Assembly (NCBI GenBank): GCA_031280635.1
Contig: JAITGK010000086.1
Span: forward strand, 1-43,688
From: Synergistaceae bacterium
Lineage (GTDB): Bacteria; Synergistota; Synergistia; Synergistales; Aminobacteriaceae
Direction of reading: 5' to 3'
Length of the DNA: 43,688 bases
Shown here one piece after another: positions 8,657 to 23,704 of this stretch; position 1 is the first letter of the stretch; each line of letters opens with the position of its first letter. The notes below the pieces were generated by a model, which was not told the DNA's origin, ran no database searches, and saw nothing but the letters and a program-made list of their open reading frames with translations. Made by a program: the position numbers and the translations under genes.

Positions 8657-11359
8657 TTATCTGCCGACCACGCCGAAGCCATTTATCAGGCGGTCCAGCA
8701 TTTCGTCGACGGTGGAGGCGTAGCGGGCCATGGCGTTGTAAGCTTGGTTCCATTTCAAGATGTCCAGCATTTCCTCGTCCACGTTGACGCCCATGACGGA
8801 TTGACGCTGCTGGTCGATCTGCTCCGTCAGGCTTTCTTGGGTCTTGAGCATCAGGGCCGCGTGCCCGGCTTTACTGCCGATCTCCGCCAGGTAAGCCTCG
8901 TAGAAGCTGCCGAGGGACGCGCTGTTGCCGCTCAGGAGCGTCGTGTTTTTCAGCTCCGCCATTCGGGCGGCGTTGGTGCCGCTCCCCTCCCCGGAACTCT
9001 TGCCGGACACGGCCTTTCCATTCGCGTCGAGTTCCCCCGACGCCGCGCCGATGAGGCTGATGTCGTCGTCCACCGCCGTGGAGACCTTCAGCTTCGAAGC
9101 CGCGTCTGACTTGGAGGAAAGGGCTTCGAAAAACTCCACGCCGGTGGTATTGGCGTTGACGCCGATGCCGTAGCCCGAATACTGATAGGCGTTGAAGCTG
9201 TTGACCAGCGCCCAGGCCAGCTCGTCCAGCTCGCCCTTGAGCTTGGGAAGCAAGCCGTCGCGGACGTCCTCCAGTCCCTTGACAGAGCCGTCGCGGACGT
9301 GGTGACGGACGGTAATGGCCGTGCGCCCGACGCCCTTCAAGTCCAGCCATATCCCCTCACTGACCGCTTCCAGCGTCTTGGCGCTGTAGTCGGTGCGGTT
9401 GGTTCCCGCTGGGATGCGGCGCGCCTTCTCGAACTTGTTGTCCGCCGAGAGGAAATTCACCCCGTCGAAAGAGAACGACGCGTCTTCTGCCACCTTGGAG
9501 TAGGCCGTCACCTCGCGGTAAACGGGGTCGCCGCTGGCCGTCTCGCCCGTTTGCACCAGGGTCACGAGCCCTAAGCGGCGGAGGGTCTGCATGTTGCCGT
9601 CCTCGTCGCCCATAAGGGTGATGCGCTGAGCCTCCCCCACCACGTCGCTGGCGATGGAAAGGTGCCAGGACTGGTCGGTGTCCTGCACCAGCGCGGCGTG
9701 AACCCACTGTTCGGGGTTCGTCAAGCCGTAGGCCTCCTGATATTTTTCGTTGATTTTATTGCGGATGGTCTCCAGGGAGTCCGCCGCATCCACGTCGATG
9801 GTGATCACGGGGTTCTGGTTGACCATTCCCATTTGGGCGGCCAGGCTGCCGGTCACGTCGCTGACAGAGATCAGGTAGTTGTTATTGGACCCCACGGAGA
9901 ACTGCGTGGGCGGGTTGCCCGTCCTGACGGTAAAGCCATCGTCTCCGCTGGAGGGCAGTACAGACCTCAGAAAGTCGGTGAGTTCCGTCACCGTCAAAAC
10001 CGACCCCGTTGTCTGGACGGGATACGGCGTCGGCAGGGAAACGTAGGAAGTTCCTCCTGCGGTGTTGAAAACGTCGCTGGTCAGCAGCCATTTCTGGTAG
10101 GTTGGGCTTGCGGGATCGCTGTCCCAAGTCACCGTCACGTCGGCCTGGTAGTCCCCGGCCCCGAGCCGGAAGGTATAGGTCTCGCCGTCTTGCCCCGACC
10201 CCAGGACGTTGTTGCCGATGGCGGGGTTGGGGCTGTTAAAGATCTTCGACGCAACCTGGGTCCCCTGGCTGCCCACCTGAATACGGAAGGAGGTTGAGAG
10301 CCCCAGGGCCTCGGTGGCGGTCATAGGCCGCGTGCGCATGGGAATGGTATGCGGCGGCGCCGTAGGGCTCATTTTGAGGGTGCCGTCGTCGTTCAGGCAG
10401 AGCGGGTCTTGGCCGCCCACGGTCCAGGCCTCGCCGTTAGCGAGACGGTAGACGTTGAGCTGGTGGACGCCCTCGGGCCCCGTGGCCAGGGCCAAGGCCA
10501 CGCCTGTGTCCTCCACGATGTCGAACTCGTTGTCCCGCACCTGCACGTCGTAGTAGATTTTGTTCTCCCACTGGAAAGCGTGGGCCACCAGCTCCCTCAC
10601 CTTGTCCCCCTGAACCAGGGTGCGGCCGTTAAGGGTAATGAAAAACTCCCCCGTCACGCTGCCGTTGGAATAGGGGTCCTGAATGTCCACGTCCAGCATC
10701 TTCGACAGCTTGTCCAGAAGCAGGTCGCGTTTGTCCATCAGGTCGTTGGGGTTCTGTCCCAGGCCCTGAAGCTGGTATATCTGTTTATTCAGGGCCGCCA
10801 CTTCGTAAAGTATCTCGTTGGCCTGGGTCACAGCGGTCTGCACCTCGTCGTTGACCAGCGAGGCGTATTGGTCATAGCCCTGCACGATCTGGCCGATCAT
10901 CTCCCCCAGGGACTTAGCGGACTCTATTACGGAGCGCCGTATGGAGGGATCTTCCGGGTTCTTTTGAAGCTGCTGCAGGTCGTCCCAGAACGAGTCTAGA
11001 GCCACTCGCACCCCCTGACCGGCGGGCTCCTCCAGGTAGAGCTGAACGGTGTTGTACAAGCTGTTGACTTTACCCCAATAGCCTAGGGTGGAAAGCTCGG
11101 AACGGTATTGCAGGTCAAGAAACTCGTCCCGGATGCGGATGATATCGTCGAGCTTGGCCCCCGTACCAATTTGCCCCACAATGGCCGGGCTCGAAAGCCC
11201 AGGCGCCGCGTAAGGCGTCGTGGTGGAGATGTTCACCCGCTGACGCGAGTAGCCCTCCGTGTCCATATTGGTGACGTTGTGCCCCGCCACCTCAATTCCC
11301 TGGCGAAACGCGTTGAGAGCGCGCTTGCTCATTTCCAATCCAGCAAAATTGTTTAACAT
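8657..11359 (-). CDS. flgK: FlgK hook-associated protein 1, large form (900 aa)
   Basis: Typical FlgK ends are present. The N-terminus has FAGLEMSKRALNAFRQGIE, VAGHNVTNMDTEGYSRQRV and a PYAAPGLSSP segment. The C-terminus has LKTQESLTEQIDQQRQSV followed by GVNVDEEMLDILKWNQAYNA and ASTVDEMLDRLINGFG. Between them lies an expanded variable domain, making it 900 residues against the common 450-650. FlgK forms the first hook-filament junction ring outside the cell, exported with its chaperone FlgN, which is encoded just upstream. A GGGGG ribosome site lies 9 bases before the ATG, and the gap to flgN is only 6 bases. Confidence 0.95.
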   Translation of the reverse strand: MLNNFAGLEMSKRALNAFRQGIEVAGHNVTNMDTEGYSRQRVNISTTTPYAAPGLSSPAIVGQIGTGAKLDDIIRIRDEFLDLQYRSELSTLGYWGKVNSLYNTVQLYLEEPAGQGVRVALDSFWDDLQQLQKNPEDPSIRRSVIESAKSLGEMIGQIVQGYDQYASLVNDEVQTAVTQANEILYEVAALNKQIYQLQGLGQNPNDLMDKRDLLLDKLSKMLDVDIQDPYSNGSVTGEFFITLNGRTLVQGDKVRELVAHAFQWENKIYYDVQVRDNEFDIVEDTGVALALATGPEGVHQLNVYRLANGEAWTVGGQDPLCLNDDGTLKMSPTAPPHTIPMRTRPMTATEALGLSTSFRIQVGSQGTQVASKIFNSPNPAIGNNVLGSGQDGETYTFRLGAGDYQADVTVTWDSDPASPTYQKWLLTSDVFNTAGGTSYVSLPTPYPVQTTGSVLTVTELTDFLRSVLPSSGDDGFTVRTGNPPTQFSVGSNNNYLISVSDVTGSLAAQMGMVNQNPVITIDVDAADSLETIRNKINEKYQEAYGLTNPEQWVHAALVQDTDQSWHLSIASDVVGEAQRITLMGDEDGNMQTLRRLGLVTLVQTGETASGDPVYREVTAYSKVAEDASFSFDGVNFLSADNKFEKARRIPAGTNRTDYSAKTLEAVSEGIWLDLKGVGRTAITVRHHVRDGSVKGLEDVRDGLLPKLKGELDELAWALVNSFNAYQYSGYGIGVNANTTGVEFFEALSSKSDAASKLKVSTAVDDDISLIGAASGELDANGKAVSGKSSGEGSGTNAARMAELKNTTLLSGNSASLGSFYEAYLAEIGSKAGHAALMLKTQESLTEQIDQQRQSVMGVNVDEEMLDILKWNQAYNAMARYASTVDEMLDRLINGFGVVGR

Positions 11360-11365
11360 ATCGCG

Positions 11366-11812
11366 TTACCCCCTAAAATCCAGCCCTCCGGCGCGCGTAA
11401 ATCCCGCGTTAAGGCGTCTCCACTCGGAAAGAAGCATTGCGCTGTAACGCTCGTTCCGCTCGATCAGGCTGATCAAAACCGCCATCTCCGACTTCAAAGC
11501 GAAAACCACGTGCCCCAAACGGTCTCCCGCTCCTCGGAACAAGGCTCGCTCCCCGTCGGAAATGGCCGCCGCCAGGGCTGAAAGGCGGGGCTCACAGCCC
11601 AGTGCGGCGGCAAGGGACTCCGCCAAACGCGTCCTTTGGGCCTCCTTGGTCTGAATGCTAAAAAAAACGTCCTGGACGTCCTTCATCAAGTCCTGCATGA
11701 GTTCACGGTCGTCGTCCTTGACGGCCTCGCGCTGTTCCGTGACCAAATCAATCAGTTCGTCGAGCAGCTCGGCCTCCTCCAGCATGGCGTGGGTCAGGGC
11801 CTGCGCGGACAA
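11366..11812 (-). CDS. flgN: FlgN-like export chaperone
   Basis: The 148-residue, mostly alpha-helical protein is rich in Leu, Glu and Arg and sits exactly where FlgN is expected, between flgM and flgK. It opens with ALTHAMLEEAELLDELIDLV, the amphipathic helix typical of FlgN, and ends with a helix containing ISLIERNERYSAMLLSEW. FlgN binds the C-termini of FlgK and FlgL in the cytoplasm and delivers them to the export gate. I chose a TTG start at 11812, preceded by GAGGAA at 7 bases; the alternative would be an internal start after the first helix. Primary sequence is weakly conserved in the family, so context contributes strongly. Confidence 0.85.
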   Translation of the reverse strand: MSAQALTHAMLEEAELLDELIDLVTEQREAVKDDDRELMQDLMKDVQDVFFSIQTKEAQRTRLAESLAAALGCEPRLSALAAAISDGERALFRGAGDRLGHVVFALKSEMAVLISLIERNERYSAMLLSEWRRLNAGFTRAGGLDFRG

Positions 11813-12204: not shown

Positions 12205-12232
12205 GTATCGGCAAGTGCGCCAGAAGGCTTTA
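12205..12232 (-). promoter_or_regulatory. Sigma-28 (FliA) type promoter for the flgM operon
   Basis: Read on the minus strand there is TAAA (12232-12229), a 16-base gap, then GCCGATAC (12212-12205). The FliA consensus is TAAA, about 15 bases, GCCGATAA. Seven of eight -10 bases match; the spacer is one base longer than ideal. It lies about 100 bases upstream of flgM. The TAAA directly abuts an IS5-family terminal repeat starting at 12234. Confidence 0.75.
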
Positions 12233-12233
12233 G

Positions 12234-12330
12234 AGCGTGTTTTAAAAGGTCTCAGATAGACCGAAGGCGTCTCAACATGAAGATTAGATCATAGCCAGTG
12301 TAAAGATGCAGAGAACCCTCCCTCAAATGA
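12234..12330 (-). mobile_element. IS5-family right-end remnant with transposase C-terminus
   Basis: The sequence starts with GAGCGTGTTTTAAAAG, identical to the left end of the IS remnant at 23419. Reading away from this end on the minus strand, a frame closes with LHLYTGYDLIFMLRRLRSI then a stop, resembling the usual '..MIRLMLRRL' ending of IS5-type transposases. Only the last ~25 codons are recognisable. The fragment separates the cobN-like operon from the flagellar promoter. Confidence 0.7.
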
Positions 12331-12430: not shown

Positions 12431-15400
12431 CTAGTCCTTTTTCTTTCCGCGTCTGAGGCCGGCATAGAACAGCGCCAGCAGGGCCAACACGAACGCGGCG
12501 GCGAACCACTCCACTCCTGAGGAGGACAGGGACGTATGATCTTGCCTGTCCTCCACCCGCTCCATCTTGAAGCCCTTGACACTAACCTCTCCAGTGTCGC
12601 TTTCGGGGCCTGCCGCCGAGTTGGAGGGGGTGGCCTCACCCAGGTTTTTCAGCAGGTTCGCGCGGGCCTCCACCATCTCCTCAAGGCTTTTCTGCCCCGT
12701 TTTTTCCACTGCCAATTTGAACTCAGCTGTCATTTCGGGCGCCATGAGGCCCGGAATTGAGATGATGTTGAGCACCGTCTGGTGAAACTGCGGGTTGTTG
12801 CAGGTGTGGTCGCAGCAGGCGACTCCACGGTTTATCACGCTCATGGCGTAGTTCACAGCCAGCTTGCGCTCAATCTCCTCGCCGGCGTCCCAATAACCCC
12901 TGCGCGCCGTCTCCAGCATCCGCGCGGTCATGGACTGGTAGGCCCACGGGTTGTTCTCGTCCAGAAATTTGTGAATGTCCAGCCCGTACTTGTCCGTCAC
13001 GTACACTTCGTAGGTCTGTTTCCACAGGGAATCGTCCACAGCCTCAGGCGTCGTCACCTGCCACCCCCAAAGGTGGTCTACGTAGTCGGACATCTCGGCG
13101 GCCCCGGCGTACTTCTCTTCCTTCATTCCCTCTATCCACCTGGGGTTCAGATAACGCGCCCGCGTCTCGCCCGCGAGGAATTTCTGGAGTGTCTTCATTT
13201 TGACCAAACCCCGTGTCCTCTGATCTGCCACCAGTGTATCCGGCGCGACACCGGACACGTGGCGTATGGCCATGGACAGGCCGCCGAGCCACTGAAACAT
13301 GTCGTCGTTGTCCAGAAGTCCGTACAGGTTCGAAGAGACGGAATGCCACGCCACCTTTGAATCGCGCATGTTCTCGTCGAAAGCGCCTTGAGCCGGCTCA
13401 CCCCACAGGCCCTCCCCATACGCGAAGCCGATCTGCTTCCTGTACACGTCGGACACGGCCGAATCCTCCTTCCACAGCCCGGACGCCGACACCATCTCGC
13501 TCACCCTGGTTCCGTAAGAACCCGGTCTCGCGGAGAATATCCTGACCTTTGAAAAACGCACGGCCTCCTCCTCACTCATGCCGGACGTCATCAGCCTTTC
13601 CTTGATGCGAAGGTCGTTCCTAGCGATGAAGTTTTCTATGTCATCCTGGACCACAGCCTGCCTGATGGCATTATCGATAAAGAGCAGCTTGTCCGGAAAA
13701 ATATCCCGGTAAAGGCTGGAGGGGTTGATCAGCACATCTATCCTCGGACGCTTGAGGATGCTTCCCGGTATGGGCCGCGTGCCCGTCACCGTGCCTGAAG
13801 CGTTCCACACCGGCTCCACGCCGATCAGGGCGAATAGCGTGGCCTCGTTTAAGCCCTCGTTGCGCAGGGACTCCTCGGCCCACAGCACTACGGCCACTTT
13901 ATCGGGGTACGTTCCGTGTTTGTCTGTATAAGCGGACACAATCTGCTCCGCGGCCTTTTGTCCTAGCTCCCACGCCGCAGGAGTGGGCAGCCGGTTCGGA
14001 AAAATCCCGTAAAAATTTTTCCCCGTGGGGAGCGCACCCGGGTTGCGGATCGGGTCCCCGGCCTCCGCTGGAGGCACGTAGCGACCCTCCAGTGCCCGCA
14101 GGAAGTTCGTCATCTCCGACGGCCCCGATCTCGAAAGGTTGTCCGCAGCCGCTTTCGCGCTCCAGTCCACGTTCTGTCTGACGATGGACGCGGCAAATTC
14201 CTTGACCTCGTCCTCCGCGGGAGAGCGCCCGTAAGTGTGAAGGCCGTAGGGCGCCGTGTCCGTTTCCAGGTACTCCAGGTACTCGGCGAGCGCCTCCACG
14301 TCCTCCTCCCCGCCGATTTCTTCGAGTCCCAGGTCCTTGTGGAGCCCCAGGCTCTCCGCCAGCGCCCGGACGCGCTCAAGGTACGTCTCTTCCGTCAGCG
14401 AACCGGTAGAAGCAGCGCTCTCGTATTGCGCGCAGAACTCCTTCAGTTCTTTGTATTCTGCGTAGCCCTCCGCTGGGGTCAGCGTCGGCGTCAGGTGATC
14501 CAGCGTCACGGCCCGCCCCCTGCGTTTAGCCTGAAGCCCTTCCCCGACCAAGTCCATGTTGTAGGGGTAGAGGTTCGGGACGTCTGTCACCATGACCTCC
14601 GGGGGGCAGGAAAGCGAAAGACCCGATTGCTTGCCCGGCAGCCACTCGTGGGTAGCATGCGTCCCCAGGTGCACCATCGCGTCGGCCCCGAAAACGCGCT
14701 CAAGCCAGAGGTAGACCGCAATATATTGATGGTGCGGGTAGATCACGGCGTCGTGGTAGAGCTTCATAGGGTCATCGGTAACGGCGCGCGGCGGTTCGGG
14801 AAGCATTACCAGGTTGCGGGAACTCACCATCGGGATAACGATGTTCCCGTCCTTGATCATAGGGCCGTCCCGACCCGGTTCCCCCCACTGTTCCGTCACG
14901 CGGCGCTTGAAGTCCTCAGGCAGCTCGGCGAACCATTTTTTGTACGTTTCGACCGGAAGGAGTTCCGCCTGCCCTGAGGCGATGAGGGCCTCCAGCTCCC
15001 CCGGCGCCCACGAGCCCACGTTGCGCCCTCCCCTCAGAACCAGCCCCTGGATGTTCTCCTCACGGAGCGCGGCGTTTGAAACCAAGTACCCGGCGTTCTG
15101 CAGAGCGGAGGAGATTTCTTCCAGGCTGCGGAACACGTTGAGGTAGCTTGCGCCGATTTTTTGTTTCCCCTGACTGTTATTATAGTAGAGAATCGCCACT
15201 TTTTTCTCCGAATTTGGTTTTTTCCTCAGCTTGATCCAGTTATGAATCCTTGGTGCCATTCTCTCCACCATGCCGGGGATAAGCACTGTACGGTACACCA
15301 CGCCGCCGCTTGACGGGTGGCGTTCCTCCACTTTCGCCATCAGGGGCGTGGGCTCGACGATCCCGCTGATCTCCGGCGTCGCCAGGGTCCGCGTCACGTC

Positions 15401-16315
15401 CAGGACAGGCAGGCCTTGCTCGCTCCGGGACCATTCGTCAATCGTGAGCGACCTTATGTTGATAGCGTTGAACACCAGCGTATCCAGCGCCTCGATCAGC
15501 TTCCCCAGCTCCTCGTCCAGAGCGGAGTAAAATTTCAGCGTGAAAAGAAGAACGGCATCCACCCGGGGCCGTCTCTTTTCGTCCAGGAAAAACGACTCGA
15601 AGGTGACGCGGTCCGGGCCGAAGGCGACGATTACATTGAAGCCCTCACCCTCCAGTTTCGACACCAGCTCGTCCAGCGCGTCGCGCTGTCCCTCCAGGAC
15701 GGACGTGGAAAAAACGGTGATTCCGAGCCTGGGAAGCTCAGCGTTGTAGGCGCTCCTGGACTCCGACCACCTCATGTAGTCCACGTAGTTGCCGAACGGG
15801 GACGGGGCGTCCGGGTGGTATAGGCCCGTTTTCAGCGTCTCCTCCACCGGCCCGTAGGACACGTCCCCGTCCAGAGTTTTGTGTATGGCGAGTTTCAGCA
15901 TGTTGCGGATGTTTTCCCGGCCGATGTTCAGAAAATAGGCCGCGACCTCACTGTCGAACAGGAAGCCCCGTTCTCTCAGTTCTTTGTCGTCCCGAGAGCG
16001 TCTCAGGGCAAAGACCGTCTTACCCTCGGTCAAACCGTGGCTGAGCAGGTACTGCGCCAGGTTCCAGCCCATCACGTCCACTAGTATAACCTCGCTGCCG
16101 CGGACGAACTCCTCCGCTTCCGCGCTCTCCAAATCCGCCAAGCAATACGCTCGCGCACGGATATCTTGGGGAAGATCGAGATTTGCCATGGCCTCCTGTG
16201 CCACGAAACTGTCGGAATCGATAACAATCAAGGACACGTCCGCCGCCCAGCAAGCGGCGGGCGTCAGGACGAACATGGAGAAAAAGGCGATCGCAAAAAG
16301 AAAAATTTTTTTCAC
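12431..16315 (-). CDS. CobN/HmuS-like chelatase, extracytoplasmic and membrane-anchored (1294 aa)
   Basis: This large protein belongs to the CobN/BchH/ChlH family of metal-tetrapyrrole chelatase subunits. The family signature is at about residues 544-560, MVHLGTHATHEWLPGKQ, with the conserved His and Glu. Nearby blocks GPMIKDGNIVIPMVSSRNL and YPHHQYIAVYLWLERVFGAD are also typical. Unlike cytoplasmic CobN, it starts with a clear signal peptide (MKKIFLFAIAFFSMFVL, cleavage near CWAAD) and ends with a transmembrane helix and basic tail (WFAAAFVLALLALFYAG, then RRGKKKD). That topology matches HmuS-type proteins of haem or corrinoid uptake loci, which are thought to act outside the cytoplasm in metal removal or exchange. 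No ChlI/ChlD or CobS/CobT ATPase partners are encoded nearby. It is the last of six genes behind a cobalamin riboswitch, 33 bases after the TonB receptor gene. The substrate (corrinoid or haem) is not decidable from sequence alone. Confidence 0.88.
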   Translation of the reverse strand: MKKIFLFAIAFFSMFVLTPAACWAADVSLIVIDSDSFVAQEAMANLDLPQDIRARAYCLADLESAEAEEFVRGSEVILVDVMGWNLAQYLLSHGLTEGKTVFALRRSRDDKELRERGFLFDSEVAAYFLNIGRENIRNMLKLAIHKTLDGDVSYGPVEETLKTGLYHPDAPSPFGNYVDYMRWSESRSAYNAELPRLGITVFSTSVLEGQRDALDELVSKLEGEGFNVIVAFGPDRVTFESFFLDEKRRPRVDAVLLFTLKFYSALDEELGKLIEALDTLVFNAINIRSLTIDEWSRSEQGLPVLDVTRTLATPEISGIVEPTPLMAKVEERHPSSGGVVYRTVLIPGMVERMAPRIHNWIKLRKKPNSEKKVAILYYNNSQGKQKIGASYLNVFRSLEEISSALQNAGYLVSNAALREENIQGLVLRGGRNVGSWAPGELEALIASGQAELLPVETYKKWFAELPEDFKRRVTEQWGEPGRDGPMIKDGNIVIPMVSSRNLVMLPEPPRAVTDDPMKLYHDAVIYPHHQYIAVYLWLERVFGADAMVHLGTHATHEWLPGKQSGLSLSCPPEVMVTDVPNLYPYNMDLVGEGLQAKRRGRAVTLDHLTPTLTPAEGYAEYKELKEFCAQYESAASTGSLTEETYLERVRALAESLGLHKDLGLEEIGGEEDVEALAEYLEYLETDTAPYGLHTYGRSPAEDEVKEFAASIVRQNVDWSAKAAADNLSRSGPSEMTNFLRALEGRYVPPAEAGDPIRNPGALPTGKNFYGIFPNRLPTPAAWELGQKAAEQIVSAYTDKHGTYPDKVAVVLWAEESLRNEGLNEATLFALIGVEPVWNASGTVTGTRPIPGSILKRPRIDVLINPSSLYRDIFPDKLLFIDNAIRQAVVQDDIENFIARNDLRIKERLMTSGMSEEEAVRFSKVRIFSARPGSYGTRVSEMVSASGLWKEDSAVSDVYRKQIGFAYGEGLWGEPAQGAFDENMRDSKVAWHSVSSNLYGLLDNDDMFQWLGGLSMAIRHVSGVAPDTLVADQRTRGLVKMKTLQKFLAGETRARYLNPRWIEGMKEEKYAGAAEMSDYVDHLWGWQVTTPEAVDDSLWKQTYEVYVTDKYGLDIHKFLDENNPWAYQSMTARMLETARRGYWDAGEEIERKLAVNYAMSVINRGVACCDHTCNNPQFHQTVLNIISIPGLMAPEMTAEFKLAVEKTGQKSLEEMVEARANLLKNLGEATPSNSAAGPESDTGEVSVKGFKMERVEDRQDHTSLSSSGVEWFAAAFVLALLALFYAGLRRGKKKD

Positions 16316-16348
16316 GGCGCAACTCCTTAAATTTTTTATAATACTAGT

Positions 16349-18397
16349 TTATAATACTAAGTTGAAGGTTACGTAAAACCTCCGCCCTTCCACCGGGTAC
16401 CAAAGCACGCGCTCTGGACCGTTGTAGCCGTTGGAGCGCAGCCGCCAGCCGTCCGCGCTGTTGAAAACGTCGTTCACTCCCGCCATGAGCTGGGTCGTCG
16501 AACTCAGGTCATATTTGAGTCCCAGGTTCCACAGGTCGCGCCGGTCGAAAAGGACGGTCTCCTGGGCGTCGGCGAAGTTCCTCCCCACATACTGGTATTC
16601 CAAAAACGCGGAACCCCTGCTGAACTTTCGCATCAGGCGCAGAGCGCCGCTCCACTCCGGGCGGTTGGGCAGCCTCTTCCCGTCGTAGTACGCCGTCCCG
16701 GAGTCGGGGACGTTCCGGGTAGTGTTGATCCCCCGTAGCCACGTGGCCGAGCCCGACAGGCTCCACTTCTCCCAGTCCAGCGCCCCCTCCAGCTCCACCC
16801 CATTCACCTCGGCGTCCGATATATTTTCGTACCGGCCTACCCGGTGGCTCATCACCTGAAACTCAATGAGGTTCTCCACGTTGCGCCAGAACGCGGAGAG
16901 CGACGCCCTCGCTTTCGCGCTGTCCAGAGGTCGGATAGAGCCATTCCACATGAGCCCTAGGTCGAACTGCACGCCGGTCTCCCACTTCAAACCGCCGGAG
17001 GAGGGCATGATGAATGCGCCGTCGCCGTGCCTCTCAAACAAATTCGGTGCGCGGGCGTAAGCGCCATAGGTTCCTTTCAACATCCAGCGAGGCGAGAACT
17101 CCTTGGTTAGCGCTATCTGCCAGGTGAAGTGGCTGTCGCCGTCCAGCATATGCCAGCGGACGGACGGCGTGGCCAGAAACGTTCCGGCCCTGTTCAGGGC
17201 GACGGTGTCCTGAAAGTTCACGTTCCAGTCCTCGCGTCTGAAATGGCTGTCCCCGGCCAGCACGTCCGCCACGAAGCGATCCCCGGAAATTCTGAGGCTC
17301 TCGTTGGAATACTCGGCCAGTAGTTCCAGGAAGTGACGTTCCCCGGCGCTGAGGCTGGCGCTGAGAGACAGCCCGATCCTGTCCGAGCCGTATTTCACGC
17401 GGCGCGTGTAGGCATACCCTATCGGATCCGTGCCAGTGCTTGTCCTGCTGTCGTAGATTCTCTCCTGCCCGGTGTAGGAGAGCCCCCATATCCAGTCCAC
17501 GGCCCCGTTTCTCTGAGTCCTGGCCAAGGACAAGTCCCACCTCTCTGTGTCTTGGGTGGGACCTGGGGGCTGACTGAGGCCGAAATTGTCCGTACCAGGC
17601 CCCGCAATGGCAAGCTCCCGATTCCTCCGCACCCACGAGGCCCGCGCCTTCCAATAGCCGTTCTCCCACTTCAACAGAGTGTCAACGTTGTCGAATCCGT
17701 TATTGCGGCGTTTGCCATCGTAATCGTCCGTAAGGTTGTAGGGCGTTCCGTTGTCGTTCCAGTAGGTGAAATCCCCACCGTAGGTCTCGTAGCCCAGCGA
17801 CGTGAAGAATTTGCCGCGTCCGGCCGGGGCGCTGTGGGACGCTGTCGCGGCGAGGCGCCCAAAGGAACCCGCCTCCAGGGACAGTCGTGTCTCCGGCTTT
17901 TCAGATGTCTGGGTCACGATATTGATGATCCCGCCCATGCCCTGCGCGCCGAATCGGGCCGGGATGTACCCCCGATAAACCTCTACCCGCTCCACGCTGC
18001 CCATGGGAATCCGGGAGAGGTCCACCGCGGACTCACCCTGAAGGTTCATCAGCATGCCGTCTACGTACACGGCCACCTGCGCGGAGGTGCTGCCCCTGAC
18101 GGAGGCGAAGACGTAGCCGTAGCGCCCGCGGAGCGCGATGACCCGCAGGCCCGGCACGTCCTGCAAAAGCTCTGGCAGGGTGAGCTGCTCGCCCGCCCTG
18201 TCCTCGGCGGGACGTATCACCGTCACCATGCCCGGTGAGACATACTTGTCCTCCTCCCTGTCGTAGATCACCGACCCGCTCACCACCTCCTCCAGCATCT
18301 CCGCCGCCGCTCCCGCCGGGAGCGCAGCGGGAAAAAACAGGATCAGGACGGCAACCAGCGCCCAAAGCCGGGAACAGTGGGCTCCACCCGGCCTCAT
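16349..18397 (-). CDS. TonB-dependent outer-membrane receptor, BtuB-like
   Basis: This is a 682-residue receptor. The start is the ATG at 18397, which overlaps the preceding gene's stop as ATGA and is followed by a signal peptide (LWALVAVLILFFPAALPAGA). An upstream in-frame start would add 23 residues and bury the signal. The plug domain is clear: LTLPELLQDVPGLRV, VRGSTSAQVAVYVDGM, VERVEVYRGYIPARFG and the GGIINIVT box. The barrel follows with alternating aromatic strands and ends YVTFNLVL. Such receptors import vitamin B12, haem or siderophores using TonB energy. Control by a cobalamin riboswitch argues for a corrinoid substrate. The C-terminal residue is Leu rather than the usual Phe or Trp. 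Confidence 0.9.
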   Translation of the reverse strand: MRPGGAHCSRLWALVAVLILFFPAALPAGAAAEMLEEVVSGSVIYDREEDKYVSPGMVTVIRPAEDRAGEQLTLPELLQDVPGLRVIALRGRYGYVFASVRGSTSAQVAVYVDGMLMNLQGESAVDLSRIPMGSVERVEVYRGYIPARFGAQGMGGIINIVTQTSEKPETRLSLEAGSFGRLAATASHSAPAGRGKFFTSLGYETYGGDFTYWNDNGTPYNLTDDYDGKRRNNGFDNVDTLLKWENGYWKARASWVRRNRELAIAGPGTDNFGLSQPPGPTQDTERWDLSLARTQRNGAVDWIWGLSYTGQERIYDSRTSTGTDPIGYAYTRRVKYGSDRIGLSLSASLSAGERHFLELLAEYSNESLRISGDRFVADVLAGDSHFRREDWNVNFQDTVALNRAGTFLATPSVRWHMLDGDSHFTWQIALTKEFSPRWMLKGTYGAYARAPNLFERHGDGAFIMPSSGGLKWETGVQFDLGLMWNGSIRPLDSAKARASLSAFWRNVENLIEFQVMSHRVGRYENISDAEVNGVELEGALDWEKWSLSGSATWLRGINTTRNVPDSGTAYYDGKRLPNRPEWSGALRLMRKFSRGSAFLEYQYVGRNFADAQETVLFDRRDLWNLGLKYDLSSTTQLMAGVNDVFNSADGWRLRSNGYNGPERVLWYPVEGRRFYVTFNLVL

Positions 18398-19728
18398 GCC
18401 CCGCACCTCCGCAGCCGCAACGCCGGAACCAGAAGCCAAACAAGCCCCCAGACCCCGGCGGAGCACCCGCTAGGCGCACCATCGCCGCCCCCGCTCCCGT
18501 CCCCCAGGCTGAGCCTCTCCACTGGGGCAAACGCCACTGTGTTGTTTGTCCCTTTGTGCTGGTCCTCGGCGAGGGATGCCCTCAAAATTCCGTCTTCGCC
18601 GTAGGCGGCAAACCGCCTGTTGGCCATGTACCAGAACGTCCCGTCGTCTTCGTCGTAGATCAGGTCCACCCTGCCCGGCGCGCCGTCATAATACGCCAAA
18701 CAGGTGACATTTGGGGCGACCCCGGCGTCCAAGTCTGCGACGGTGGCACGCATCAGCACGGAGTAATAATTAGAACTGGCGTAGTCATAACCCACGAGAA
18801 ACACAACGCCGGTGTTCGAAATGGAAATCCGGTGGAAACCTCTCATGTTGGCGGTGGGACGCGAAATCTCGGAAATTGTCAGCAGCTTCGTCACCGTCAG
18901 GTCGTCGGCCGTCACCTTCCATATTGCACCATCTTTGGAGGTGTCGCCGGTTGTTCCTCCCGTCGCCGCGATGTAAAAATTGCCTTCGTAAAACGCCATG
19001 TTGTTCACGTTCCGGCCTGCCGTCCAGCTATCGTCGTCCGGGGCGGAAGACTCCTCAATCCACGCTTTGTTTTCAAGGTCGAGATTCTCGTTGAAACAAA
19101 ATATCTCACTGGCGTCGTAGGGTGTGCTGGTTTTATAGGACATGGAGAGCACGTAGACTTTCCCGTTGCGGACGTAGATGTCCTGCCCTCTTCTGTAGGT
19201 TTCGGCAGAGTTTCTGTATCCGTCCGTGAGGCCCTCGAAATTGTATCGCACCACCTCCCTGTAGCCGTCTTCCATGTCTAGCTTTATCACCGACCCTGAC
19301 CTCAAATTGGCGGTTCCGACGTCGCCGTTGCTCACAAATTTCTGCGAGCAGGTGATATAAAGGTAGCGCCCCGCCGCGGCCGCCCCGTTGATAGAGTAGC
19401 AGTTGATGGCTTTCGTGTTGTGGACAGGCCGACTCCAGTCCATGGGGTCATAGATGGAGAGCACGTCGTTTCCTGAACCTGCGGTGTACTCATTCACCAG
19501 CACGCGGTCTCGGCCGAGCATATCCTGATAGGAAAACACTGAGACGGAGACGCCGGACTTGAGGCCAGTAACCAAAAACGGGTGGGCTTCGTAGCCCGAG
19601 CCGCTTGGCGTTATAGCCCCCAGAAAATTGCCGCCCGATGGGTCTCCGATGTAGAGCAGCTCCGCGCGGGCGGAATCGACCCCAACCATAAGCGACAGAG
19701 CCAACAAAAAAATTTTGAAACGTTTCAC
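18394..19728 (-). CDS. Secreted propeller-like protein with Synerg-CTERM sorting signal
   Basis: The 444-residue protein starts at GTG 19728 (AAGGAG ten bases upstream), giving a signal peptide VKRFKIFLLALSLMVGVDSA. A longer TTG start adds 8 residues. The body has repeating beta-rich units with Asp/Gly/Tyr-rich turns (LLYIGDPSGGNFLG, GRYLYITCSQKF, VRNGKVYVLSMSY, FYEGNFYIAATGG), suggesting a beta-propeller. The C-terminus has a Gly/Ser spacer, PSGCSAGVWG, a short hydrophobic helix LVWLLVPAL and RLRR, which matches the Synergist-specific C-terminal sorting signal with its Cys. Similar secreted propellers in Bacteroides B12 loci (BtuG) capture corrinoids on the surface; an analogous role here is inference from position next to the TonB receptor. 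Confidence 0.75.
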   Translation of the reverse strand: MKRFKIFLLALSLMVGVDSARAELLYIGDPSGGNFLGAITPSGSGYEAHPFLVTGLKSGVSVSVFSYQDMLGRDRVLVNEYTAGSGNDVLSIYDPMDWSRPVHNTKAINCYSINGAAAAGRYLYITCSQKFVSNGDVGTANLRSGSVIKLDMEDGYREVVRYNFEGLTDGYRNSAETYRRGQDIYVRNGKVYVLSMSYKTSTPYDASEIFCFNENLDLENKAWIEESSAPDDDSWTAGRNVNNMAFYEGNFYIAATGGTTGDTSKDGAIWKVTADDLTVTKLLTISEISRPTANMRGFHRISISNTGVVFLVGYDYASSNYYSVLMRATVADLDAGVAPNVTCLAYYDGAPGRVDLIYDEDDGTFWYMANRRFAAYGEDGILRASLAEDQHKGTNNTVAFAPVERLSLGDGSGGGDGAPSGCSAGVWGLVWLLVPALRLRRCGA

Positions 19729-19755
19729 TGAAATCCTCTCCTTACTCGCCAACGT

Positions 19756-21006
19756 TCACTTTTCCCCCAGTATGCCGCGATACGCCTCGAGCCTCGTTCG
19801 CAGGTTCCCCTCGTCCTCGGTCGCGTAATCGGTCTCCAGCCGTATGAACTTCAGCCCGCCCTCCTTCAGCGCACCTTCCAGGCCCCGGCTCTCTATATCG
19901 TAAAGGTGACACCCTTTCAGGACGTGAAACACCACCCCGCGGAAATCAATTCCCTCCCGCTGTCCCAGGATGTTGTTGATCCGCCTGTCGTTGTCGATGA
20001 ACGTGGGGCACAGGCAACCCTGGTGGTAACGCTCCGCCAGTGCTGTCATCATCCCATGCAGAGAGGAATCCCGGTACGTGACCGCGCCGGGGATGATTCG
20101 CTCCGACGAGCAAAGGTCGTCGGAGGCCATGTAAAGCCCCACCTCTTCCATCAGCAGAGGAATTTTGAAATTAGGGAAAAAAATCGGAGATCCGGCCAAA
20201 AACACCCTCGCCTTTTCTTCTGTGGGGTCTAGAGCAGGCGAGCCGGTTATCTTCTTGGCCGCCTCGCTCCACCTTTCGGGCGAATCCGAAAAAAACGAAC
20301 CTGCTATCAGCATGAACCAAACCGCCGCGAGACGCCCCTCCTTCCGCATGGCCGACAGGCGACTCAAAGCGGCCCAGGCCCTTTGGTACCGCTCAATCGC
20401 TTGAGCGAGAGATTTTTTATCTACCCTGCGCCCGATGCTTTCGAGAAAGTCTTTCAGCTCGTATACTTCATTCAGCCACCTTTTCTGCCCATGCTCGCCG
20501 TCCTTCAGATGAGGCAGCTCCAGCCAGTGCATCTTCGGTGAAAAAACGCGCCCTTCCCGGGAGGCCAGCTCAGGAAACTTGACGACCCAGTCGCAGGTGG
20601 TGGGAAGCACCCAGATGGACTCGCGGGTCTCGTCCTTCATGCCGACGGCCCCCAGCACCGCGCGCAGCATGGGACACATCAGGGCCGGAGTGCCTTGGAC
20701 CGTCAGACTGGAGACGGCGGGCGAGCCGCTCCACACCTTGAGCGGATGAAAGCCCGCCGCGCTCACTAGCTCCACTGGAACCTGAATACACAGCAATTTC
20801 GCCACGGGCCGCCCGGTTTTCTCCGCCATGGCCTCGGGTATGCCGCCGTTCTCGGCGAGATCCAGGAAGTAATCAAATTGCGGCGAATAATCACCTCTGG
20901 CCCTCAAAAACTCGGCGCACCTGCGGGCCTCCTGAGTGACCCGTTCCGCCGCCCTCTCACGCCTGTTCAAGCCGCCTGATCCGGCGGTCACGATTTCCTT
21001 CTCCAC
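19756..21006 (-). CDS. 2-hydroxyacyl-CoA dehydratase D-component / double-cubane cluster family protein
   Basis: The 416-residue protein resembles the HgdB/FldC/BcrC/DCCP superfamily of Fe-S proteins that accept very low-potential electrons. Visible elements are a RRCAEFL helix near the N-terminus, GRPVAKLLCIQVPVELVSAA, LMCPMLRAVLG, LPTTCDWVVKF and FHVLKGCHLYDIE, with Cys at the positions expected to hold the cluster. Length is normal for the family. Its ASKHA-type ATPase activator is not in the window, and no CoA-substrate genes surround it, so a dehydratase role is unlikely. In this operon it may deliver electrons to a metal-tetrapyrrole reaction (inference). The first in-frame start is GTG at 21006, inside the 3' end of the preceding gene; a GGAGGT site is better placed for an out-of-frame ATG at 21018. 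Confidence 0.78.
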   Translation of the reverse strand: MEKEIVTAGSGGLNRRERAAERVTQEARRCAEFLRARGDYSPQFDYFLDLAENGGIPEAMAEKTGRPVAKLLCIQVPVELVSAAGFHPLKVWSGSPAVSSLTVQGTPALMCPMLRAVLGAVGMKDETRESIWVLPTTCDWVVKFPELASREGRVFSPKMHWLELPHLKDGEHGQKRWLNEVYELKDFLESIGRRVDKKSLAQAIERYQRAWAALSRLSAMRKEGRLAAVWFMLIAGSFFSDSPERWSEAAKKITGSPALDPTEEKARVFLAGSPIFFPNFKIPLLMEEVGLYMASDDLCSSERIIPGAVTYRDSSLHGMMTALAERYHQGCLCPTFIDNDRRINNILGQREGIDFRGVVFHVLKGCHLYDIESRGLEGALKEGGLKFIRLETDYATEDEGNLRTRLEAYRGILGEK

Positions 21007-21983
21007 GGTGTTCTCATTTTTGATACCTCCAGTCCGCTACTCTCGTCCGTCTTTGACGTCCCCAGTCCCGCCGCGCGCGCCCGCGACGCCGAAAATATAC
21101 GTCTCCTAAAAAATGACAAGAACAGCGCGTCGTCCGAGGGGCACGCCTTCACACATTCCGCGCAGCCGAGACACTCGTCGGCCTGCACGTCGCTGGAAAC
21201 TCTTTCCCTGTAGACGACCTCGATCTGCATCGGGCACGCCCTGCGGCAGCTGCCGCACCCGATACAGCTCTCCGGACGCTTCACGAGCCTGAGCGCGGTC
21301 AAGGGTTTTAAGATATGTATTATGGCCAACATGGGGCAAAAAACGCAGAAAAAACGCTCCCTCAACAACATCCCCGCCAGCATGAAGCCTGTGATGGAGG
21401 TGAGAGCCGCGGAATACCAAAACCGTATGTCGTTGTCGAAGTTAATATTGAAGTAGAGCGTTTTTCCCTCGAACAGGGGGAGAAGGGTCTTTCCGGGACA
21501 GATTTTGCAGAACGGGAGGTAGAAATCCCTGTGAAGCGCGCCGGCGGTGACTAACAGCGGAATGACGGCCATGCAGAGCAGCAACCCGTATTTTATGTAA
21601 GAAAGCCTGCGAAGCGTCTTTGGGAATAGCAGTGTCTCGCGTATCCCAAGCTCCCGACGTATGGAAGTCATCCAGTCTTGGAGAAGCCCCATCGGGCAAA
21701 GCCAGCCGCACCAGGCTTTACCCAGGAACGCCACAGATAAGACGAAAAGGGTGAGCCACCCCAGCGCTTTGAGCAACCCCACGCCGGTGGCCTGAACCAG
21801 GGTCATGCCGAAACCGATGGAGCCCTGGAAGCCCATGAGGTAACAGTTGCCTCCGCAGCCCGACACATATGGGCAGGAAAAACAGGGGACGGCGCGCCCT
21901 AAGTTGAAACCGGCCCGTCCGCCGTATATCATCACGAGAAAGCTAATGTGCTTGACCAAGAGCTTGAGGTTGGAAAATTTCAT
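20988..21983 (-). CDS. NapH/RdxA-like membrane-bound 4Fe-4S protein
   Basis: The 331-residue membrane protein has about five hydrophobic segments and many Cys motifs. Two are ferredoxin clusters near the C-terminus: CIGCGSCRRACP and CLGCAECVKACP. NapH-type membrane Cys motifs are also present: AWCGWLCPMGLLQDW, FCKICPGKTLLP and FFCVFCPMLAI. An unusual CFSCPYVSGCGGNCY lies near the N-terminus. Such proteins pass electrons from quinol or ferredoxin across the membrane to periplasmic reductases. I chose ATG 21983 because it overlaps the upstream stop (ATGA); the ORF extends further upstream but only into the previous gene. The 3' end overlaps the next gene by 19 bases. The operon suggests it powers an extracytoplasmic or membrane-associated reduction. 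Confidence 0.85.
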   Translation of the reverse strand: MKFSNLKLLVKHISFLVMIYGGRAGFNLGRAVPCFSCPYVSGCGGNCYLMGFQGSIGFGMTLVQATGVGLLKALGWLTLFVLSVAFLGKAWCGWLCPMGLLQDWMTSIRRELGIRETLLFPKTLRRLSYIKYGLLLCMAVIPLLVTAGALHRDFYLPFCKICPGKTLLPLFEGKTLYFNINFDNDIRFWYSAALTSITGFMLAGMLLRERFFCVFCPMLAIIHILKPLTALRLVKRPESCIGCGSCRRACPMQIEVVYRERVSSDVQADECLGCAECVKACPSDDALFLSFFRRRIFSASRARAAGLGTSKTDESSGLEVSKMRTPWRRKS

Positions 21984-22831
21984 CTGATTCGGCATCTCCT
22001 GTTCTGGCGGGTCAAAAACAACAGCCCCACACACGTCCCGATACAGACCGAGACGAGTCCGTGCCGGAGACTGATCTTGCCGTAATAGACGCGATACAGC
22101 GGCAGATACAGGCTTATCGTGCCTGTGCCATCCGAAATTTTCGCCTCCATGACCAAATCTTTGTACGTCGTGTAGCTTGCCTGCGACAATGCCTCGTCGT
22201 GGGGAGGAGTGTAGCTGTACAACCCCAACTCGCCGCGCCGGACCGATGCCGTTAGATTCCTGTCCTCGAAAACCCTCACGGTCTCCGAGGCCGCGTCGCA
22301 ATCGATTAGGACGGGCGTTTCCGTGCGCGCCCGGATAAAATCCAGGTCGGCAAAACGAAACGCAGGCCAGTCCGGGATACGGTCAATCCGCTCTATGTCC
22401 ATATCCCGCGCCTCGAAGCCGCCGTTGCCGGTGAACATGGTCTGCGCATAATACAGGTCATCTCCGCTGCGTATCCTGGAGAACAGTTCCACGCGCTCCG
22501 AGCGTCCGCTGCGTATGGTTATCACCGGTTTCTCTCCGTTCGCTGGGATGCCGACAACTTTCCGATACGCCTCTGGCGGGCCGTAGCGCCTCATCGACCG
22601 TTTTCCGATTTGCGGGTAAGTAACATAAAAAGCGGCTATTTCACCGGGTGCTTTACCGTCGGGCATCATCAGCTCAAAGACGGTGAGCATGCTGCCATCG
22701 CGGTCTATCTCTTGGGCTGTCATTCTCCACCAGGTAAAATCCATCGCCTCGCCGGAGCACGCGGCAGAGCCGCCGGTTTGAGTGAAACAAAACCACATCG
22801 CTAGACCTAATGCCAGGCGAAACTGCCTCAT
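21980..22831 (-). CDS. Secreted single-pass protein of unknown function, possibly DUF4198/CbiK-like
   Basis: The 283-residue protein has an N-terminal signal (LALGLAMWFCFTQTGGSA) and a C-terminal membrane helix (LVSVCIGTCVGLLFL) with a basic end, so most of it lies outside the cytoplasm. The segment LGLYSYTPPHDEALSQASY and the beta-rich YRVYYGKISL before the anchor weakly recall DUF4198/CbiK-type cobalt or nickel binding proteins. I cannot confirm this without a profile search. It is the first gene after the cobalamin riboswitch and terminator, about 90 bases below the latter, and its stop overlaps the next gene (ATGA). A short dyad GAGCC-cga-GGCTC sits just upstream of the start and could affect ribosome access. 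Confidence 0.7.
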   Translation of the reverse strand: MRQFRLALGLAMWFCFTQTGGSAACSGEAMDFTWWRMTAQEIDRDGSMLTVFELMMPDGKAPGEIAAFYVTYPQIGKRSMRRYGPPEAYRKVVGIPANGEKPVITIRSGRSERVELFSRIRSGDDLYYAQTMFTGNGGFEARDMDIERIDRIPDWPAFRFADLDFIRARTETPVLIDCDAASETVRVFEDRNLTASVRRGELGLYSYTPPHDEALSQASYTTYKDLVMEAKISDGTGTISLYLPLYRVYYGKISLRHGLVSVCIGTCVGLLFLTRQNRRCRIR

Positions 22832-22922
22832 AGAACACCACTCGCTTTAGAGCCTCGGGCTCAATATTTGGGCCATTGCTGGGTGCATAATTACGAAACC
22901 GCCATAAAGTGACCTTTAGGAC

Positions 22923-22957
22923 AACAAAAAGCCCGGACCACTCAAAGTGACCCGGGC
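22923..22957 (-). terminator. Intrinsic terminator of the cobalamin riboswitch leader
   Basis: The minus strand has a 12-bp stem (GCCCGGGTCACT pairing with AGTGGTCCGGGC through two G-U pairs), a 3-base loop and then TTTTTGTT. It lies between the riboswitch and the first gene and has no other gene upstream, so it is the likely expression platform: B12 binding would favour termination. Confidence 0.85.
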
Positions 22958-23085
22958 ATCCCATTTCCGCTCGATCATTATGAAATTGTATTATAGCTAC
23001 CGCCCTTTCGCGCGCGATAAATTCAGAACATCAGATTTTACGCGAGATTTTAGAGCTGCTATAACCGGCGAGACCCTGAATTCCC

Positions 23086-23280
23086 CCCAGGCTTCTCAAT
23101 CCGCTTTCGCCCAGGCAGGTCTTCTGGCTCGTCCTCTTTTTCACGGTCTTCCCATCGGCGAAGTGACAGTGACCCTAACATCGTGAAAAAGCCCGCCATC
23201 GTCTGGCGGCCGGACTTACAGTGATGGGTTCGCTCCTGACTTTCACAGGATTCCCTATTCTCTCTAAAAGAGCACCTGAA
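23086..23280 (-). promoter_or_regulatory. Cobalamin (AdoCbl-type) riboswitch
   Basis: Read on the minus strand the leader contains the conserved blocks in order: AGGTGCTCTTTTAGAG, then AATAGGGAATCCTGTGAAA, AGGAGCGAACCC, CACTGTAA, GATGGGAAGACC, GAGCCAGAAGACCTGCC and a closing GAAGCCTGGGG stem. GCCAGAAGACCTGCC is the B12 box. It sits just after a strong promoter and about 250 bases before the first gene of the six-gene CobN-like/TonB operon. Confidence 0.97.
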
Positions 23281-23288
23281 CGAGGTAT

Positions 23289-23317
23289 ATTTTATCTGCC
23301 CACTATTGGTTTGTCAA
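23289..23317 (-). promoter_or_regulatory. Sigma-70 promoter for the riboswitch operon
   Basis: On the minus strand TTGACA (23317-23312) is followed by a 17-base spacer and TAAAAT (23294-23289), with transcription expected to start a few bases before the riboswitch. This is the best vegetative promoter match in the window. Confidence 0.88.
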
Positions 23318-23418
23318 TCGTACTGATCCAATTCCCAGGGCAAACGCATCAAACGGCGGCAAGCAACTGGAGGATATAATCGTCGTTCCAGGAGGCTTTA
23401 AGAAGCTTGCCTCTAAGA

Positions 23419-23704
23419 GCGTGTTTTAAAAGAATGAGGAGGCTCTACATTATGCTAATGCTGTATTATATATATGATACGTGCTAAATATGCTGCAGAC
23501 TTAAACGACGAAGATTGGAATGCAGCGGAAGGCCTTATCCCTTCGGCCTGCGAAGGCGGACGTCCGCGCAGTGCAGATATGAGGGAAATTTTAAACGCTG
23601 TCTTTTACATCCTGCGAGCTGGATGTGCGCGGCGCCTTCTTCCGCATGACCTGCCTCCATGGCACGTTCACTTTCCAGTCGCCTTGTGTGTTACTATGAG
23701 CTAA
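23419..23704 (+). mobile_element. Truncated IS5-family element: left end plus transposase N-terminus
   Basis: The left terminal repeat GAGCGTGTTTTAAAAG is followed at 23474 by a transposase frame that opens [18 protein letters not shown] and continues [18 protein letters not shown] and [17 protein letters not shown], the DUF4096-type N-terminal domain of IS5 transposases. After this point homology is lost and the frame ends at 23704 (76 codons; a full protein is about 250-280). No catalytic domain or right end follows, so it is a dead remnant upstream of the cysteine-synthase-family gene. Confidence 0.85.

Follow-up and report, generated by a model that had tools for sequence, protein, structure and literature searches.

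The window considered here, a stretch of 43,688 nucleotides from a Synergistaceae bacterium (contig JAITGK010000086.1), contains a cobalamin riboswitch followed by six tightly packed open reading frames (ORFs), all on the minus strand like the control signals that precede them. The promoter is of the sigma-70 type (TTGACA-17-TAAAAT, 23289..23317; 11 of 12 matches, the best among six promoter-like sites). The aptamer (RF00174, 23097..23294) was recognized by its covariance model over the full model (positions 1-189), scoring 79.8 bits against a gathering cut-off of 31.5 (E 3.4e-18), and an intrinsic terminator (22931..22957; a 12-pair hairpin with 8 G-C pairs and a T tract) lies between it and the first gene, where it is likely to form the expression platform. 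The genes, here called g1 to g6 in order from the riboswitch, encode a secreted beta-sandwich protein of 283 amino acids with a C-terminal membrane helix (g1, 21980..22831), a NapH-like membrane iron-sulfur (Fe-S) protein (g2, 20988..21983), a subunit resembling double-cubane cluster proteins (DCCPs; g3, 19756..21006), a secreted beta-propeller with a Synerg-CTERM-like GCSAG tail that is a candidate surface corrinoid binder (g4, 18394..19752), a TonB-dependent receptor with BtuB-like plug and barrel (g5, 16349..18397) and a CobN/HmuS-like class I chelatase with a signal peptide and a C-terminal membrane anchor (g6, 12431..16315). Junctions are correspondingly close: ATGA overlaps join g1 to g2 and g4 to g5, g2 and g3 overlap by 19 bp if the listed GTG start is used, and only 3 bp and 33 bp separate g3 from g4 and g5 from g6, respectively; for g5, a start at 18397 is better placed than the listed one at 18466. 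An initial annotation, made from the sequence alone, had described this arrangement of promoter, riboswitch and terminator before six minus-strand genes with ATGA overlaps or short gaps, and its family assignments for g2 (NapH-like), g3 (HgdB/double-cubane type), g5 and g6 hold as well.

The first three genes belong to a cassette that is inherited as a unit. The host assembly (G000; Synergistota, 2.84 Mb, 98.6% complete, 8% contamination) was compared with its phylum by searching 188 Synergistota genomes, among which g3 has nine copies of at least 55% identity in seven genomes, the next matches falling to 34%. Searches with g2 and g1 returned exactly the same seven genomes and nine copies, all g2 copies scoring at least 565 bits (next protein, 99) and g1 having no other match. 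The order g1-g2-g3 is kept at 9/9 loci and, wherever the contig continues, an activase gene follows g3, except in the window: the point at which this ATPase (PF01869) sits in other loci (19753..19755, minus strand) is empty, and the propeller gene g4 comes straight after g3. Two further cassettes in the host genome (contigs C15 and C40) each have a riboswitch, an activase and a propeller of their own.

When genome contigs were scanned with the g3 alignment to look further afield, 36 loci emerged, many from metagenome-assembled genomes (MAGs), which placed the cassette in seven phyla: Synergistota, Pseudomonadota, Thermodesulfobacteriota (including Candidatus Adiutrix), Acidobacteriota, Myxococcota, Planctomycetota and Bacillota, the last represented by Sporomusa ovata DSM 2662 and Sporomusa sp. 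KB1. Across the 38 loci used for neighbourhood counts, which are those other than the window, g2 lies beside g3 in 34, g1 is in place in 30, the activase, of the BcrAD/BadFG type and the usual fourth cassette gene, directly follows g3 in 34, and a cobalamin riboswitch is found upstream on the same strand in 22, although many contigs are cut. As a negative control, about 1.5 kb on each side of 23 generic double-cubane loci was read: g1 and g2 were each present in 0/23 and a cobalamin riboswitch in 0/20 scanned, and an activase was present in 17 of 23. The B12 link is therefore a property of this g3 clade and not of double-cubane proteins generally. That unrelated genes simply came to lie side by side, a notion to which the missing activase and the missing DUF2162-ExbB-DUF2149 trio (see below) of the window copy lend some colour, is practically out of the question given a gene order common to seven phyla, perfect co-occurrence in 188 genomes and the clean outcome at the 23 control loci. 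Judged from gene content, the cassette is a conserved, B12-riboswitch-associated four-gene set, and the finding is larger than the window shows. The initial annotation had named a lack of conservation across relatives as one finding that would undo it, and the Fe-S and HgdB-like genes are indeed conserved with CobN genes and with B12 riboswitches across phyla.

Some loci depart from this plan. In four Myxococcota MAGs (L073, L074, L076 and L080), g3 and the activase lie apart from g1 and g2, with a divergent ABC gene between them where the contig shows it; in the first three of these, a TPP riboswitch (divergent, minus strand) stands just upstream of g3. The activase of S. ovata is split across two frames (L064:11230-12020), and that of Sporomusa sp. 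KB1 (L066) is intact. The g3 gene of a Desulfobulbus MAG has TGA, an in-frame stop, in place of the conserved Trp codon that follows PTTCD (L061:10406-10408), which may reflect sequencing error, decay or recoding.

The g3 protein belongs to the HGD-D family and aligns best with the DCCP structures 6eno and 7yyl, scoring 186.5 bits with the double_cubane model (NF040772), below its equivalog cut-off of 350. For the cluster ligands, BzdN served as the reference; its [8Fe-9S] cluster is held by C36, C73, C100, C263, C293 and C327 (PMC11971306), with which C73, C111, C138, C299, C333 and C366 of g3 align exactly, and all six of these putative ligands are invariant across the g3 clade. In a tree with 23 ordinary double-cubane proteins, the cassette proteins form one side of a branch with 100/100 support, so that g3 is not an ordinary DCCP homologue. 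The activases of the cassettes likewise share two cysteines, invariant in 33/33 sequences; such cysteines are expected for a cluster that bridges dimers of activases. This genome holds two activases of the cassette type (on C15 and C40) and a generic one (C175), from which the window copy could possibly borrow. It is likely, but not certain, that C15 and C40 come from the same cell as the window, because they are short contigs in an assembly with contamination.

The g2 protein is of the NapH/Fer4_5 type, with a score (TIGR02163, 68.4) below the NapH equivalog cut-off of 213. Eighteen of its cysteines are invariant among homologues: eight make up a C-terminal double ferredoxin domain, four (C92, C96, C213 and C216) lie near the inner face, and six fall in two motifs on the predicted periplasmic side, CxxCx5CxxxC (C34, C37, C43 and C47; 21843..21884, minus strand; invariant in 35/35 homologues) and CxxC (C159 and C162; 21498..21509, minus strand; invariant in 36/36). 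This division into 6 outside and 12 inside follows from the positive-inside rule, with 8-10 Lys or Arg residues in the 87-131 loop of g2 homologues and 1-3 in the 151-185 loop of most of them; the topology is thus a predicted one, and the first membrane helix is only weakly hydrophobic. The g1 protein matched no known family in the family-model scans. Its predicted fold is confident (pLDDT 83) and consists of beta-sandwich domains and a terminal helix; a fold search for a known enzyme returned just Ig-like sandwiches (TM ~0.2) and gave no lead.

The remaining three genes constitute a second module, concerned with uptake and chelation, in front of which the cassette (g1, g2, g3 and, elsewhere, the activase) has been set. 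We distinguish the two because the uptake/chelatase module occurs without the cassette in L110, from the same genus, and on C77 and C12 of this genome. The proposal of a single six-gene functional unit in the initial annotation accordingly stands as regards the association of the genes; it does not stand as regards unity, since the second module is found without the first and the ATPase of the cassette lies outside the window.

Within this second module, g6 belongs to PF02514 and is closest among solved structures to HmuS (9d26; 515 bits), ahead of CobN (442) and ChlH (385). Its H553 aligns with the catalytic His-538 of HmuS. At the position of His-254, which in HmuS lies at the haem site and defines the family (PMC12583661), g6 has a tyrosine, as read from a weak region of a pairwise alignment, and about 200 residues of HmuS (692-891) are without a g6 counterpart within two aligned blocks. 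It scores below every CobN equivalog cut-off (best, 944.9 versus 1619; TIGR02257, 594 versus 822) and, with its signal peptide and anchor, is not a true aerobic-type CobN for B12 synthesis. The receptor g5 has TIGR01779 (TonB-B12) as the best of all NCBIfam models, even though its score of 127.4 is below the BtuB equivalog cut-off of 599.7. For g4, the family-model scans assigned no family, and neither the protein nor its tail matched an NCBIfam model; its designation as Synerg-CTERM in the initial annotation rests on the GGGDGAPSGCSAG tail. The predicted fold is clearly a propeller, if a modest model (pLDDT 63). A propeller-family protein in L110 passes the Synerg-CTERM model TIGR04564 (25.6 versus 22.5); for g4 itself the model match is missing. 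Members of the g4 family directly precede a TonB receptor in both L109 and L110. A fold search placed BtuG2 with cobalamin (8okv) and BtuG3 (8p97) among the better matches (target TM 0.56-0.58), with generic propellers, Sec12 among them, ranking above. A claim that g4 is a proven BtuG finds no support past the propeller fold; that it is a surface corrinoid binder analogous to BtuG, anchored at its C-terminus, is a reasonable guess.

What surrounds the cassette elsewhere points to corrinoids. Single-sequence searches, which give lower bounds, found a TonB receptor in at least 13 of the 38 loci, the DUF2162/ExbB/DUF2149 trio in at least 11, and CobN and CbiZ in at least 10 each. In L039 the genes run TonB receptor, DUF2162, ExbB, DUF2149, a secreted BtuF-CbiZ fusion, CobN, g1, g2, g3, activase, ExbB and TonB; the trio recurs on C77 and C12 of the host genome. 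CobN homologues occur in 9 of the 188 Synergistota genomes, among them six of the seven with a cassette (Fisher p = 1e-8), the seventh (G124) being 71% complete. The link between corrinoid uptake, a CobN-like chelatase and low-potential Fe-S proteins put forward in the initial annotation is thereby supported. Two neighbours are recorded for themselves: a BtuF, CbiZ and CobN fusion in one frame of 1968 amino acids (L041:558-6464), and a conserved protein, 2-hydroxyacid dehydrogenase-like by eye, between DUF2149 and CbiZ in a corrinoid/CobN operon (L108:6113-6919 and L110:4085-5074).

If B12 were merely the signal read by the riboswitch, the substrate could instead be haem or another tetrapyrrole, handled by an hmu-like system, or a small molecule. 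HmuS is, after all, the best solved match of g6, hmu operons also carry an ExbB-like gene, HmuU (PMC13227078), and double-cubane proteins reduce acetylene, azide and hydrazine (PMC11971306). Yet CbiZ, which by family definition acts on adenosylcobinamide as an amidohydrolase and so marks the substrate as a corrinoid rather than haem, is fused to BtuF in sister operons, the receptor is BtuB-like, and cobalamin riboswitches precede the cassette in several phyla. We consider a non-corrinoid substrate very improbable, and a link of the cassette to corrinoids almost certain.

The S. ovata locus bears on the same point. There, a NifH-like and two NifDK/NifE-like genes (L064:4744-8132) follow the riboswitch ahead of g1 and form a single gene run with the cassette, which places a nitrogenase-like reductase under a B12 riboswitch. 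Nitrogenase-like enzymes include the known tetrapyrrole reductases CfbCD and BchLNB, and for this reason their presence fits a corrin as substrate. The same locus holds CobN remnants in two frames (L064:2412-3903).

Taken together, we propose, tentatively and with marginally more doubt than conviction, that the window encodes a B12-repressed corrinoid-scavenging operon with an attached ATP-driven donor of low-potential electrons for periplasmic corrinoid processing. Read directly from sequence are the control signals, the order and families of the genes, the conservation of the cluster ligands and the joint inheritance seen in several phyla; the steps that follow would build on them. An activase, supplied from the sister cassettes of this genome, probably hydrolyses ATP and so charges g3, at its double-cubane-type cluster, with electrons whose potential lies far below that of ferredoxin, in the range that reduction of cob(II) to cob(I) demands. 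These would pass to the cytoplasmic ferredoxin domain of g2 and, via membrane-embedded clusters, to the six cysteines on its periplasmic side, where g1 could dock a periplasmic partner. The propeller g4 and receptor g5 would bring in the corrinoid, and the acceptor may be the cobalt of a corrinoid sitting on the anchored CobN/HmuS-like chelatase or, in sister loci, on BtuF-CbiZ. Reduction of the cobalt would strip axial ligands or loosen the metal, leaving the corrinoid open to remodelling, to demetallation or to release to the importer. Made only when B12 is scarce, the cassette would be devoted to supplying electrons for the processing of corrinoids on the periplasmic side, which is the most economical model. 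An ATP-driven supply of low-potential electrons is probable; delivery to the periplasm falls a little short of an even chance.

The energetics are compatible with such a role. Activators of this ATPase kind bring the electrons that they donate down to about -600 to -800 mV, and the Co(II)/Co(I) couple lies at -530 mV on a corrinoid protein and at -460 to about -600 mV for free cobalamin (PMC6739815); ferredoxin alone is insufficient, and ATP-driven injection sufficient. The ATP-driven activation of nickel in F430, at -650 mV (PMC12176620), is a parallel case in which ATP and large Fe-S clusters solve the same problem on a different tetrapyrrole. For its metal, in turn, HmuS needs a reductant, by a route that its discoverers describe as unknown (PMC12583661). 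An activase and g3 inside, an 18-cysteine wire (g2) through the membrane and secreted g1 outside would amount to a transmembrane electron pump of a new class, driven by ATP and giving the periplasm electrons below -500 mV with which to reduce corrinoid cobalt, a suggestion that we make with more reserve still. We know of no system that does this.

The electrons might instead be spent inside the cell. On that account, g2 passes electrons inward from quinol or the periplasm, the activase and g3 make cob(I) from an imported corrinoid or a corrinoid enzyme for adenosylation or reactivation, and g1 serves as an assembly factor. The activases and double-cubane proteins known so far reside in the cytoplasm, adenosylation requires cob(I), and the NapH family works with quinol; BtuFCD genes adjoin the cassette in L040, and a BtuR-type adenosyltransferase (PF02572) was not found in the host genome, in which the PduO type was not searched for. 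However, the six invariant g2 cysteines are predicted to lie on the outer side, g1 is secreted and, within Synergistota, always co-inherited, and the neighbours that would touch the corrinoid (CobN and BtuF-CbiZ) have signal peptides. We therefore regard a purely cytoplasmic reductase as rather unlikely.

Alternatively, the reduction might have a narrower purpose, namely to power the CobN/HmuS-like protein in removing the cobalt of foreign corrinoids, much as HmuS does with the iron of haem, with the cobalt feeding the cell's own synthesis. The bit scores that bring g6 nearer to HmuS than to biosynthetic CobN and the retained catalytic histidine agree with this, as does the host's gene content: corrin-ring and late cobamide genes (CbiC and CobS) and, on its contig C21, a secreted cobalt chelatase, CbiK, downstream of a cobalamin riboswitch (L037:7250-8431). 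With two B12-binding enzymes, one FecCD permease and one CbiZ also present, the host probably both makes and scavenges corrinoid. But cobalt is hard to take out of corrins, and destroying a corrinoid when B12 is scarce would be wasteful; moreover, because CobN adjoins only about a quarter of the loci, the role of the cassette should be more general than demetallation. Cobalt removal as its purpose strikes us as improbable. The reduced corrinoid may undergo ligand stripping, remodelling with CbiZ or removal of its cobalt by the CobN-like protein, and the reductive remodelling or metal removal foreseen by the initial annotation, whose interpretation is overall partly supported, is likewise something that we infer.

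Several points weigh against periplasmic corrinoid processing as we have outlined it. Corrinoids and B12 reductases exist in the cytoplasm too, where a plain activase and g3 would suffice, and the sequence of g2 does not tell which way electrons flow through it. The window copy, having no activase, must borrow one, and the sister cassettes are on short contigs of an assembly with 8% contamination. With CobN beside just 10 of 38 cassettes, the chelatase is no obligatory acceptor; generic propellers fit the g4 model better than BtuG does; the function of g1 is not recognisable; and all functions are predicted from sequence evidence alone.

Around the operon, an exact 16-bp direct repeat (TTTTAAAACACGCTCT) occurs on both sides (12232-12247 and 23416-23431), with two weaker copies at 1084 and 43371 and a chance expectation of 0.01. 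Past the operon end, downstream on the same strand, lie FlgK-like and FlgN-like genes (8657-11812).

The physiological relevance of the small-molecule reactions of double-cubane proteins is still unclear (PMC11971306), and the cassette offers these proteins a possible physiological setting. It could also be what supplies electrons to periplasmic tetrapyrrole chelatases such as HmuS, and, if delivery to the periplasm is true, ATP spent in the cytoplasm would power reactions of very low potential beyond the membrane. In cultured anaerobes (S. ovata and Desulfospira joergensenii), genes without annotation that stand under B12 riboswitches thereby become a testable system. The parts of the cassette are of known kinds; a description of the combination was not found in the open-licence papers searched, in line with the initial annotation, which knew of no described pathway with this exact gene set.

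Among the closest known systems is the reductase formed by DCCP and activase, with which the cassette shares the best structural alignment of g3, the six cluster cysteines and, in sister loci, the activase. It differs in that g3 forms its separate clade, scores below the NCBIfam cut-off and occurs together with a ferredoxin in the membrane, a secreted protein and B12 riboswitches, an association never seen at generic DCCP loci. The activation of corrinoid proteins by RACo, RamA and O-demethylase AE, and of the Ni-F430 enzyme MCR, similarly spends ATP on reducing a tetrapyrrole metal at very low potential (PMC6739815, PMC12176620); the targets of these systems are cofactors bound to enzymes in the cytoplasm, and their proteins are unrelated or only distantly related, whereas the setting here is one of uptake and membrane.

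Resemblances on the uptake side are of another kind. The Hmu haem-scavenging operon (HmuY, R, S, T, U and V) likewise has a TonB receptor, an anchored periplasmic CobN homologue and, as in sister loci, an ExbB-like partner. The window holds only the receptor and chelatase of that set, and the sister-locus trio is likened to HmuT/U/V through its ExbB-like member alone; by contrast with Hmu, there is a cobalamin riboswitch, BtuF-CbiZ, a propeller in place of HmuY and an Fe-S cassette, and His-254 of HmuS is not kept in g6. Bacteroides BtuBG offers a propeller gene adjoining a TonB receptor under a B12 riboswitch (PMC10404256), and BtuG2 and BtuG3 appeared in the g4 fold search; g4, however, is without a sequence match to them, generic propellers score equally or better, and it carries a C-terminal Synerg-CTERM-like tail rather than an N-terminal lipid. 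Finally, corrinoid operon-2 of Dehalobacter restrictus combines CobN and CbiZ under a cobalamin riboswitch and is induced 346-fold by corrinoid starvation; it differs in having Mg-chelatase subunits and ABC transporters, and the parts of that account consulted here make no mention of NapH-like, double-cubane or activase genes (PMC4285132).

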